Below are positions 49,441 to 54,177 of a stretch of DNA of 64,000 nucleotides, in pieces (position 1 is the stretch's first letter; each line of letters opens with the position of its first letter). Origin of the DNA: Selenomonadaceae bacterium (GTDB lineage Bacteria > Bacillota > Negativicutes > Selenomonadales > Selenomonadaceae). Under the pieces are notes generated by a model. It was not told the origin of the DNA and did not search any database. It saw nothing but the letters and a program-made list of their open reading frames with translations. The DNA is taken from NCBI GenBank assembly GCA_024698045.1, contig JAILRS010000040.1, positions 1-64,000 on the forward strand, in the 5' to 3' direction. A program made the translations under genes and the position numbers.

Positions 49441-52227
49441 TTATTCGTGATTAATATCCTCAATGGAAGTTTCAATCTCCTCCATCTTGTAAGCCTCGAT
49501 AATATCGCCCTCTTTGAAGTCGCGATAATCGAGAATGGAGATGCCGCATTCGTAACCTGCGGCAACTTCTTTGACTTCGTCTTTAAATCTGCGCAGAGAA
49601 TCGATTTCGCCGTCGAATACTTCAATGTTATCGCGCAGGATTCTGATTTTGGAGTTGTTGGAAATTTTTCCCTCGAGGACGTAAGAACCTGCGACCAAAG
49701 CTTTGGAGAATTTCATGACCTTGCGAATTTCTACGCGACCTTGAATAACTTCCTTAAACTTGGGAGCAAGTAAGCCACTCATAGCCGCCTGCACATCGTT
49801 AATTGCGTCGTAAATAACTCTGTAAGTTCTGATATCGATATTTTCGGTAGATGCCGCCTTGCGCGCGTTATTATCGGGGCGGACGTTAAAACCAAGGATA
49901 AGAGCATTGGAAGACGAAGCAAGCATGACATCAGACTCATTGACTGCGCCTACGCCCGAATGAACGATGTTGACACGAACTTCGTCATTTTTATTGAGAG
50001 CAAGCAGCGAACCCGACAACGCTTCTATGGAGCCTTGTACGTCGGCTTTGATTAGGATATTCAAATCTTTTAAGGAGCCTTCTTGAATACGACTGAACAA
50101 ATCATCCAAAGAAACTTTTTTGGATTTAATCAAGTCGTTGCGTTTGCGTTCGATACGGTGTTCCGCAATGGACTTGGCAAGTTTTTCGTCGAGCGCGGCA
50201 AGGATATCACCGGCTTCGGGGACATCGTTTAAACCTAAAACCTCAACGGGAACGCTGGGACCTGCTTTTTTGAGATTGTCGCCGCGTTCATTCATCATCG
50301 CGCGTACTTTGCCGTAAGTTGTACCGGCAACGATTGAATCGCCGATTCTAAGTGTACCGTTCTGTACCAAAACAGTAGCGACAGGGCCGCGACCTTTATC
50401 GAGTTGTGCCTCAATGATAACGCCGCGCGCCTCACGATTGGGATTTGCTTTGAACTCCTGAATATCGGCCTCAAGCAAAATCATTTCGAGAAGTTCGTTA
50501 ATCCCCATATTCTTTTTGGCGGAAACTTCAACCATGGTAGTATCGCCGCCGTATTCGCTGGTAATCAAACCGTGCTCCATCAATTCCTGTTTGACGCGCA
50601 TGGGATTCGCACCGGGCTTATCGATTTTGTTTATCGCAACGATTATCGGGACGCCTGCGGCTTTGGCGTGATTGATAGCCTCGATTGTTTGCGGCATAAC
50701 ACCGTCATCGGCGGCGACGACCAGAATTGCGATATCGGTAACCTGCGCACCGCGTGCACGCATAGCGGTAAAAGCTTCGTGACCGGGTGTATCGAGGAAG
50801 ACGATTTTTCTGTCATTGCAAATGACTTGATACGCGCCGATATGTTGAGTGATACCGCCTGCCTCGGTTGCCGTGACCGATGATTTTCTGATGACGTCAA
50901 GCAATGAAGTTTTGCCGTGATCTACGTGACCCATGACGGTAACGACGGGCGGACGAAGTTTCAAACTGGCTTCATCATCTTCGATTTCGGGAATAAGTGT
51001 CGGATCTACTTCCGGCGGTAATTCTTCGACAGTGACACCGAATTCGCCGGCAACAAGTGCCGCGGTATCAAAATCAATCTCCTGATTAATCGTGGCGACC
51101 GAACCCATCATCAGCAATTTTTTTATGACTTCGGCTGCCGTACAACTCATTTTACTCGCCAAATCTTTAACAGCAATGCTTTCGCCGACTTTAATATGTG
51201 TCGGACGCGCTATTTCTGCCTTATGGACAACTTGGGGTTGCTGACGATTTTTCTTACGCGCAGATCTCGGAGCACGTTGTTTATCGCTCAATTGTGCCGC
51301 CTGAGTTTTGGCAGCCTCTTTTGCATTTGCGGGACCTCTTTGATTACGACCGCGCGAACGATTTTTGTTACCGTCATCGCGTTGGCGTTCGTTACGATTT
51401 TTTGATTGACGATCGCCGCGTTCGGCACGTTCCTGTCGCGGTTCCTGTTCGATGCGATTTTCTTGACTGCGATAATCTTGACGACGTTCACTGCGCTCGC
51501 CGCGCTCCTGACGTGTATCTTGACTGCCGCGACCTTCTTGATTGCGATAATCTTGACGACGATCGCCGCGTTCGCCGCGTTCCTGTCGTGTATCCTGTCC
51601 GCCGCGGTTTTCTTGATTGCGATAGTCTTGACGACGTTCGCCGCGATTTTCCTGCGTACGATTGTCGCGTCGCGGTTGTTGTGCCTGCTGTTGCGGACGC
51701 GATTGCCTTTGCGGTCTGTTCTGTTGCGAAGATTGTGCCGGTCTGTTTTGCTGTTGAGTTTGTGTCTGCGCAGGTTGCTGAACTTGCTGTTGCGATTGCT
51801 GTTGAGTTTGAGTCTGTGTTTGAGATTGTGTCTGCTGTTGAGTTTGTGTTTGCGGCTGTGTTTGTTTGACAGGTTGCGAAGGTTGCGCAGGAGTTTGCGG
51901 ACGCGGTTGCCTTTGCGGTCTTGCTTGCTGTTGAACAGGTTGCGCAGGTTTAACTTGCTGTTGAGTTTGTGTCTGCTGTTGAGATTGTGTCTGAGGTTGT
52001 TGCGGTTTTGCCTGCGGTGTTTCGATTACTTCGGCAGGAGTTTCCGCCTTTGGTTTGTTGCGACGCCCGAATGCCGACTTCACCATTTCATAAGCCTCGG
52101 ATTCGACTGCCGTGAAACGATTTTTGACTTTAACCTTATGTTTGTTAAGGAAGTCGACAATTACTTTTGCATCCTGACTGAATTCGTTAGCCATGTCGAA
52201 AATTCTATACTTAATCGGTTTTGACAT
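49441..52227 (-). CDS. infB: translation initiation factor IF-2
   Basis: A 928-residue GTPase that delivers initiator tRNA. An IF2 N-terminal helical domain (1-54) leads into a long low-complexity region (about 65-320) that is Gln/Pro/Thr-rich, then Arg/Asp/Glu/Gln-rich with about 25-residue repeats. A second IF2_N domain (about 340-390) is followed by the G domain: G1 GHVDHGKTS (about 432-440), [17 protein letters not shown]. The EF-Tu-like and C-terminal tRNA-binding domains complete it. ATG 52227 follows GGGGGTGG. It is the last gene of the rimP-nusA-ylxR operon. Confidence 0.96.
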
Positions 52228-52252
52228 AGATCCACCCCCGTTAGATTTTACT

Positions 52253-52672
52253 TTACATACGGATTTTCTCCTTTAGCGTATAATAAAGTTCATTGGACAC
52301 TTGGATTTTAAAAATATCGTCTAATATCCGTCTTTCGTCGATTATGTCAACGCATTTAAAAGATTTGCAGAGATATACGCCGCGCCCTTGAGCCTTGCCG
52401 CTTTCATCCACGATAATTTTATTTCCCGACTTGACTATGCGAAAAAATTCGGATTGAGTGGCGACTTTCTTGCAAGCTATGCAGCGTTGTAATTCGCTTA
52501 AATTGCCGTAATTGAAAATTGACTTTATCAGTTCGTAAGTTTCCGCATCCACCGCCGAAAATCTGTTACGAAAATTTATCTTACGTTCGTTGAGAAAATC
52601 GATGATGTCTTCGGTGTTTACTGACAATTCCTTTGCGATTTCGTAAACTCTGTGTTTAATTGGTTTCGGCAT
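52253..52672 (-). CDS. IF2 N-terminal domain fused to a YlxR domain
   Basis: A 139-residue chimera. Residues 1-54 ([15 protein letters not shown] to YELIKSIFN) align with residues 1-54 of the downstream infB product, about half identical. Residues 63-139 (RCIACKK, then [11 protein letters not shown] and YLCKS) align with the adjacent ylxR product, including an identical 11-residue block. ATG 52672 lies 4 bp after the ylxR stop and infB follows 25 bp later. It occupies the place where ylxQ, an L7Ae-like protein, normally sits. An RNA-binding or ribosome-related role is inferred from its parts. Confidence 0.9.
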
Positions 52673-52676
52673 GAAT

Positions 52677-52973
52677 TTATTCTCCGTGATTCGGGATTTT
52701 ATCCCTTAGCGCGTCATAAACTTCGTCGGATATTTTGACTTTGAAAATTTTTTCCAAGCTCCTCCGTCTGTTAATTATTGTCATACACTCGGGCGATTTG
52801 CAGAGATACGCGCCGCGCCCTTGTGCTTTGCCGCTCTCGTCGACGGTTATTTTACCGTCAGATTTGACCACGCGTATTAATTCGGATTTGTGACGGACTT
52901 GTCTGCAAACTACACAGCGTCTCATTTCGATTTGTTTAATTGCCGTACCCTTTGCGCTTTTTCCTTTCGACAT
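52677..52973 (-). CDS. ylxR: YlxR family RNA-binding protein
   Basis: A 98-residue basic protein of the DUF448/YlxR family: MRRCVVCRQVRHKSELIRVV (about 17-36), [20 protein letters not shown] and CMTIINRRRSLEKIF. YlxR proteins bind RNA and have been linked to RNase P and to transcription control. ATG 52973 follows GGAGGTG. Position between nusA and infB is the conserved one. A second YlxR domain follows immediately in the fusion gene. Confidence 0.93.
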   Translation of the reverse strand: MSKGKSAKGTAIKQIEMRRCVVCRQVRHKSELIRVVKSDGKITVDESGKAQGRGAYLCKSPECMTIINRRRSLEKIFKVKISDEVYDALRDKIPNHGE

Positions 52974-53025: not shown

Positions 53026-54177
53026 TCAGTTTGAAGACTGTTTGTTTTTCTTTGCGTGCGATTTCACGAAAGACATTGCGGTAGATATATCAACCTCGTG
53101 CATGTTATCGGGCAATGCGTCCGTCTTGGATTGCTTGAGGCTTTTGATATCGATTTTCCAACCCGTCAATTTGGCTGCAAGTCTTGCGTTCTGTCCTTCC
53201 TTACCGATTGCCAAACTAAGTTGATTATCGGGCACGACTACGCGGCAATTTTTTTCTTCTTCGTTTATCGCCACGCTGATGATTTTCGACGGGCTCAAGG
53301 CATTTGCAACGAATATACCGGATTTATCGCTCCATTCGATGATATCGAGTTTTTCGTCGCCCAATTCGTCAAGTACCGATTGAATTCTTGTACCGCGTTG
53401 ACCTACGCACGAGCCGACCGCCTCGACGTTCGCATCTTTGGAGTGTACCGCGATTTTTGCACGCGATCCCGCTTCTCGAGCGATTGATTTTATTTCTATT
53501 ATGCCTTCCTGAATTTCGGGCACTTGCAATTCGACAAGTCTGCGCAAAAAATTCGGGTGTGTCCTCGAAAGAAAAATCTGAGGGCCTTTGCCGAGTTTTT
53601 TTACTTCGATAATGTAAGCGCGAACCATATCGCCGACTTTGTAATCGTCGCCCGGAGCTTGTTCGGTAGGTGAAAGTATCGCTTCCGTCTTACCTATCTC
53701 GACGATTAAATTTTCTTCTTCCATGCGTACGATTTTACCCTTGACCAAATCACTTTCGCGGTTTGTAAATTCGTCGTAAATCATACCGCGTTCGGCTTCG
53801 CGCAATTTCTGTACCACAATTTGTTTGGCGGCCTGCGCAGCTATTCGCCCGAAATTTTTCGGCGTGACTTCTATCTCGATGACGTCGTCAATCTGCGCAT
53901 TGGGTTTTATAATTTCGGCATCTTCTTTGGAAATTTCTGTAACCGAATCAAAAACTTCCTCGACAACGTTTTTAAGGGCGTAGACGTGATAACTTCCGTC
54001 ATTCCTATCCAAAGTAACTTCTACATTATCATCCTGATTAAAATTTTTTCTGTAAGCCGCTTTGAGAGCCGATTCGACCGCCTCGAACATAATTTCGGGC
54101 GGAATTTCTTTTTCGGCACACAAATCTCGGAGCGCGTCGATTAAACTCGGTTCCGGTGCCTTCCTTCTTCCTGCCAA
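53026..54177 (-). CDS. nusA: transcription termination/antitermination protein NusA
   Basis: A 383-residue RNA polymerase-binding factor. Domain order is the N-terminal polymerase-binding domain (about 10-130), S1 (about 135-200, GKIVRMEEENLIVEIG), KH1 (about 235-285, SRAKIAVHSKDANVEAVGSC) and KH2 (about 305-365, NCRVVVPDNQLSLAIGKEGQNARL). There are no acidic C-terminal repeats, as in other Bacillota. TTG 54177 follows TTAGGAGG. It lies between rimP and ylxR. Confidence 0.96.
   Translation of the reverse strand: MAGRRKAPEPSLIDALRDLCAEKEIPPEIMFEAVESALKAAYRKNFNQDDNVEVTLDRNDGSYHVYALKNVVEEVFDSVTEISKEDAEIIKPNAQIDDVIEIEVTPKNFGRIAAQAAKQIVVQKLREAERGMIYDEFTNRESDLVKGKIVRMEEENLIVEIGKTEAILSPTEQAPGDDYKVGDMVRAYIIEVKKLGKGPQIFLSRTHPNFLRRLVELQVPEIQEGIIEIKSIAREAGSRAKIAVHSKDANVEAVGSCVGQRGTRIQSVLDELGDEKLDIIEWSDKSGIFVANALSPSKIISVAINEEEKNCRVVVPDNQLSLAIGKEGQNARLAAKLTGWKIDIKSLKQSKTDALPDNMHEVDISTAMSFVKSHAKKNKQSSN

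Follow-up and report, generated by a model that had tools for sequence, protein, structure and literature searches.

The described systems closest to the gene reported here are YlxR/RnpM and the N1 domain of IF2. In B. subtilis, YlxR/RnpM is an RNase P RNA-associated protein that modulates RNase P in vitro and shows non-specific DNA binding (PMC11898665). In E. coli, Domain I of IF2, mainly through N1, binds directly to the C-terminal region of NusA, as seen by pull-down, photo-crosslinking and tracking, and the N1-NusA contact has been modelled on KH2 plus AR1 (PMC12297416). On the ribosomal side, IF2 N2 docks on h16 of the 16S rRNA, and IF2 is brought to the 30S pre-initiation complex with the help of N1 (PMC13345285). 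We analysed a window of 64,000 nt from a Selenomonadaceae bacterium (GCA_024698045.1, contig JAILRS010000040.1, positions 1 to 64,000), in which one small gene carries both an N1 and a YlxR domain.

The gene lies on the (-) strand at 52253-52672 and encodes, from an ATG start, a protein of 139 aa. A first-pass annotation had described it as a two-domain IF2-N/YlxR chimera, and Pfam finds both domains. The IF2_N (N1) domain, residues 6-55 (52508-52657, (-)), passes the PF04760 gathering cut-off narrowly (26.7 bits versus 25.3; 28.3 bits in a six-frame search), and the YlxR domain, residues 63-134 (52271-52486, (-)), passes that of PF04296 with 69.7 bits versus 26.9 and keeps C64, C67, C102 and C107. 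Residues 56-62 (52487-52507, (-)) form a linker at the join point, where TACGGCAATT matches ylxR at 52935-52947. Only IF2_N and YlxR were matched in Pfam; neither the GTPase and fMet-tRNA-binding domains of IF2 nor L7Ae (PF01248) was found in the protein.

Like YlxR/RnpM (PF04296, NF047356, 1g2r), the fusion has the YlxR fold, the CxxC and Cx4C cysteines, the GRG-x-Y-x-C motif and a location in the nusA-infB operon. It differs in the attached N1 domain, in the loss of three conserved basic residues, in being a second copy within the operon, and in scoring below the whole-protein cut-off of the NCBIfam RnpM equivalog NF047356 (65.3 bits versus 80). With IF2 N1 (PF04760; Domain I of E. coli IF2) it shares a 50-residue module at the extreme N-terminus and most of the conserved core, whereas here the module is detached from the IF2 GTPase, has a net charge of 0 instead of ~+4, and is followed by YlxR within ~7 residues, with no long flexible linker. 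This half had been called an IF2 docking domain; its derivation from IF2 holds, but docking onto IF2 does not, since what the fusion carries is the N1 subdomain of IF2 itself, a module that binds NusA in E. coli. An IF2_N module also starts non-IF2 proteins of 450-500 aa in the genus (L064:1674-3029 (+), L065:900-2393 (-) and L066:1342-2742 (-)), with similar matches in ~30 genus genomes; by eye, these genes adjoin rlmB-like and NYN-type (Rae1/YacP-like) nuclease-like genes. Unlike the fusion, these proteins have a C-terminal part that is unrelated to YlxR and gives no Pfam match, and they are absent from the host genome.

Both parents of the fusion are its neighbours in the operon. The parent of the YlxR half, ylxR (rnpM; 52677-52973, (-)), encodes 98 aa and scores 93.9 bits in Pfam and 95.7 bits against the RnpM equivalog (cut-off 80). 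The parent of the N half, infB (49441-52227, (-)), was assigned with Pfam and encodes an IF2 of 928 aa. This IF2 holds two IF2_N copies (52063-52212 and 51034-51180, (-)), and the first of them, from which the fusion's copy derives, scores only 12 bits against Pfam, under the 28 bits of the fusion itself. The nusA gene (53026-54177, (-)) encodes 383 aa with NusA_N, S1 and KH domains in Pfam; beyond the KH domains the local NusA gave no Pfam match, and no AR domain was found there. The ylxR stop codon is separated from the fusion ATG by 4 nt, and in the sequence a Shine-Dalgarno-like GGAGAA (52680-52685, (-)) overlaps the ylxR end, its GGAG sitting 9 nt before the ATG. The fusion would be read within the nusA-ylxR-infB operon and, given the 4-nt gap and its own Shine-Dalgarno sequence, is probably translationally coupled to ylxR.

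None of the 763 other genomes searched has the fusion; they comprise 65 of the same genus (some incomplete or without both genes), 379 others in a sample of the class, and an even sample of the phylum. A search of plasmids gave no match, and a search of genome contigs with the fusion confirmed no relative. A contig search with YlxR recovered 16 loci: 14 lie in MAGs of Selenomonadaceae/Selenomonadales, and the remaining two in MAGs assigned to Clostridia and Oscillospiraceae. As for named relatives, the nearest ones are MAGs, mainly of Selenomonadaceae/Selenomonadales and mostly from the gut of goat, sheep, deer and buffalo, and the host is a gut (rumen-type) bacterium. Among the genomes examined, the fusion is a one-species gene.

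The first-pass annotation had placed the fusion "in place of ylxQ" in the operon and had suggested that ylxQ be sought elsewhere. The absence from the operon stands, and the L7Ae profile found no L7Ae/ylxQ gene anywhere in the host genome, which is the usual state in the genus. A functional replacement of a lost L7Ae-type ylxQ by the fusion would suit this absence and also the location of the gene, which sits at the ylxQ position. Three of the L7Ae-bearing genus genomes were tested, and all have L7Ae as the ORF that separates ylxR from infB. However, L7Ae is kept in only 7/66 genus genomes, and among the 59 without a match none besides the host has the fusion; in these relatives ylxR stands directly before infB. 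Loss of ylxQ is thus common in the genus and, since the other genomes gained no fusion, needs no replacement. Neither half of the fusion resembles L7Ae. The replacement was rejected on the L7Ae distribution across the genus, and we consider it hardly credible.

How the gene arose can be read from its alignment with the two neighbours. Identity is 47% between the N half and the local IF2 N-terminus, and 56% between the YlxR half and the local YlxR. The shared 11-residue block and the near-identical DNA noticed in the first-pass annotation are real: the peptide block is identical in the fusion and in YlxR, and a 94-nt DNA repeat, 79% identical, is common to the fusion gene and ylxR. The same annotation had proposed a tandem duplication joining the infB 5' end to the ylxR 3' end, and this origin is supported. 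The ylxR 3' part, the gap and the fusion N half align with the fusion YlxR half, the gap and the infB 5' part in a single collinear DNA alignment, beginning just before the first CxxC of ylxR and ending near infB codon 54. In this alignment, copy 1 runs from ylxR codon ~9 to fusion codon 54 (52511-52947, (-)) and copy 2 from fusion codon ~55 to infB codon 54 (52066-52510, (-)). With breakpoints at ylxR codon ~9 and infB codon ~54, one tandem duplication gives exactly the order ylxR - fusion - infB. The fusion gene is the young product of a single tandem duplication at the ylxR-infB junction, which left ylxR and infB intact.

The junctions add detail to this origin. The fusion C-terminal KEKIRM resembles the YlxR end of relatives (KEKVHM and similar), and the 25-nt gap between the fusion and infB, AACGGGGGTGGATCT, matches the infB leader at the relatives' ylxR-infB junction, so that copy 2 holds the ancestral junction; the ylxR end in copy 1 (IPNHGE) is the derived one. 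At the join, the linker DNA TACGGCAATTTAAGCGAAT matches the ylxR stretch TACGGCAATTAAACAAAT in another reading frame. From this alignment of ~20 nt, the linker looks like ylxR N-terminal coding DNA in a shifted frame, which suggests that the join was initially out of frame and that a later 4-nt deletion restored it.

The 3' end of the fusion gene also contains a start-stop element, AAAGGAG-N9-ATG-TAA (52253-52274, (-)), whose ATG TAA is the last codon and the stop of the fusion. Among the 58 genus genomes with a readable infB leader, 44 have AAGGAG (or AGGGAG) and a spacer of almost always 9 nt, followed by an ATG whose frame is closed by a stop after 1-6 codons; 35 of these leaders have the stop right behind the ATG. 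With shuffled leaders the rate is 0.4%. The mini-ORF is mostly located 17-34 nt before infB (infB upstream regions L004-L063), and the element is independent of the ylxR reading frame. In the host genome AAAGGAG-N5-9-ATG-TRA occurs once, at the position given above, and a longer form including the infB Shine-Dalgarno sequence is present in 28/66 genus genomes; elsewhere in the family, four genomes contain five more matches. One possibility is that the element acts as a minimal uORF that tunes the synthesis of IF2, another that it is left over from the ylxQ start; its presence in G013 (L030), where ylxQ is still found further upstream, argues against a simple relic. The mini-ORF is a candidate translational control element of IF2. 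A different feature was seen before infB in G085, where a ~500-nt insertion without a long ORF, by eye similar to a group II intron end, separates ylxR from infB (L053, ~1736-2237).

A false gene, created in the assembly by joining contigs of two related species inside infB/ylxR, would be expected to be missing in all relatives, as the fusion is, and the first-pass annotation had held that such an absence would point to an artefact. The draft nature of the genome (40 contigs) and nearest relatives that look like rumen metagenome assemblies fit this explanation as well. However, an assembly chimera should join normal halves, whereas both halves of the fusion are outliers and the ylxR and infB genes on either side are themselves normal. 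Identity to the IF2 N1 of any relative does not exceed 53% for the N half, compared with 70-84% for N1 of the local infB; for the YlxR half, identity to any relative's YlxR stays at or below 54%. In the trees, the branches leading to the fusion measure 0.87 for the N half and 1.3 for the YlxR half, those of the local genes 0.18. The local YlxR and the YlxR half form a group (bootstrap 94, SH-aLRT 87), and a grouping of the N half, whose placement is weakly determined, with the local infB was not rejected (p-AU 0.25). The estimated contamination is 0.16%. The absence from relatives is real but does not make the gene an artefact, with both halves outliers and selection detectable; an assembly chimera was rejected on the contrast between outlying halves and normal flanks, and we regard it as extremely improbable.

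In a codon model that gave the fusion branch its own omega (dN/dS), the value was 0.28 for the two halves together; taken singly, the N half gave 0.12 and the YlxR half 0.39. In this test, which takes the topology as given and allows each branch a single omega, omega=1 was rejected for the two halves together (2ΔlnL 12.8) and for the N half (2ΔlnL 13.0), and the YlxR half alone was only marginal (2ΔlnL 3.9). None of the 40 replicates of a parametric bootstrap under neutrality reached the observed value, whether the two halves were combined or the N half was taken alone. The fusion gene is under purifying selection. Its reading frame is open at 36% DNA divergence, and under neutral drift to the divergence of the fusion the frame stays stop-free in ~1-3% of simulations. 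Of the columns conserved in the relatives' YlxR, the fusion keeps 16/21, compared with 21/60 of the other columns (p=0.002); the corresponding figures in the N half are 13/21 and 15/37 (p=0.17). The fusion protein has diverged quickly, with both folds, the four YlxR cysteines and GRG-x-Y-x-C retained. As a separate observation on this family, the YlxR of G077 (L055) carries an insertion of ~30 residues in the loop that precedes its conserved D-x-x-x-K region.

The same data bear on whether the fusion could be a by-product, a duplicate whose protein does nothing and whose frame is still open by chance, or which is retained only for the cis-acting infB leader/start-stop element in its 3' end. 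Its occurrence in only one species, its fast evolution (the branch of 1.3) and the conserved leader element in that 3' end would all be compatible with such an origin. However, the constraint at the amino-acid level is most pronounced in the N half, well away from the infB leader (the omega of 0.12, matched by none of the neutral simulations), and the gene has a re-made Shine-Dalgarno sequence besides a frame open at the divergence given above. We consider a by-product improbable. Natural selection is keeping the fusion, which therefore probably does something; it is a genuine, selected, single-lineage domain fusion assembled from known domains.

What it does can be approached from its predicted structure and charge. 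In AlphaFold predictions, for which separate alignments were used for the two halves, the YlxR half has a pLDDT of ~87-94 and matches 1g2r (E 8e-5, 1.3 Å rmsd), and the N1 half has a pLDDT of ~80 and a weak resemblance to T. thermophilus IF2 (E 6e-3). Five conserved YlxR residues are changed in the fusion, three of them from basic to Q, Q and E. Relative to the local copies, the net charge drops from +8 to +5 in the YlxR half and from +4 to 0 in the N half, the median for N1 being +4. With positive charge lost from N1 and three conserved basic residues lost from the YlxR half, binding to the original partners may be altered. The loss of conserved basic residues, together with the score below the RnpM cut-off, makes a simple second RnpM unlikely.

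The best explanation overall, in which we have moderate confidence, is a selected gene born by duplication and encoding a modified YlxR protein targeted by N1. The N1 module would target the fusion to NusA/RNA polymerase or to the initiation machinery, and would carry along a modified, diverged RnpM-like YlxR domain predicted to bind zinc and RNA. If the protein is expressed, the outcome would be an RNA/RNase P modulator localised at NusA or at the initiation complex and different from the free YlxR made by the neighbouring gene. The role as a new translation or RNA-processing factor suggested in the first-pass annotation is plausible. The more specific proposal, that a one-step fusion within the operon yielded a selected factor bringing an RNase P/RNA-binding YlxR, via N1, to RNA polymerase with bound NusA or to ribosomes engaged in initiation, is a tentative one that we would not expect to hold in this form. 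The N1-NusA contact may not apply in this host, or not in full, because in E. coli it involves AR1 and the local NusA has no AR domain that we could find. Absence of the fusion from the 763 genomes confines comparative support for a retained function to one lineage.

Because both halves have lost positive charge, the main rival to a targeted YlxR protein is a competitor or decoy, which would occupy the partner of IF2 N1 or pair with YlxR and so lower the activity of the parent proteins, instead of adding RNA targeting. Both domains were copied from operon neighbours, conserved positive residues were lost in both halves while the fold was kept, and the RnpM equivalog cut-off is missed, all of which a decoy would accommodate. 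On the other hand, the YlxR half keeps its four cysteines, GRG-x-Y-x-C and several basic residues, and its remaining net charge of +5 is compatible with RNA binding. We see a decoy as a possible but rather unlikely role for the protein.

The fusion offers a snapshot of gene birth by tandem duplication in an operon that ranks among the most conserved in bacteria, at a stage when the breakpoints are still readable and selection is already measurable. It is also a natural bait for the binding partners of IF2 N1 and YlxR/RnpM within one cellular neighbourhood. If the proposed targeting by N1 is true, transcription, the start of translation and RNA processing would be linked in one small protein.
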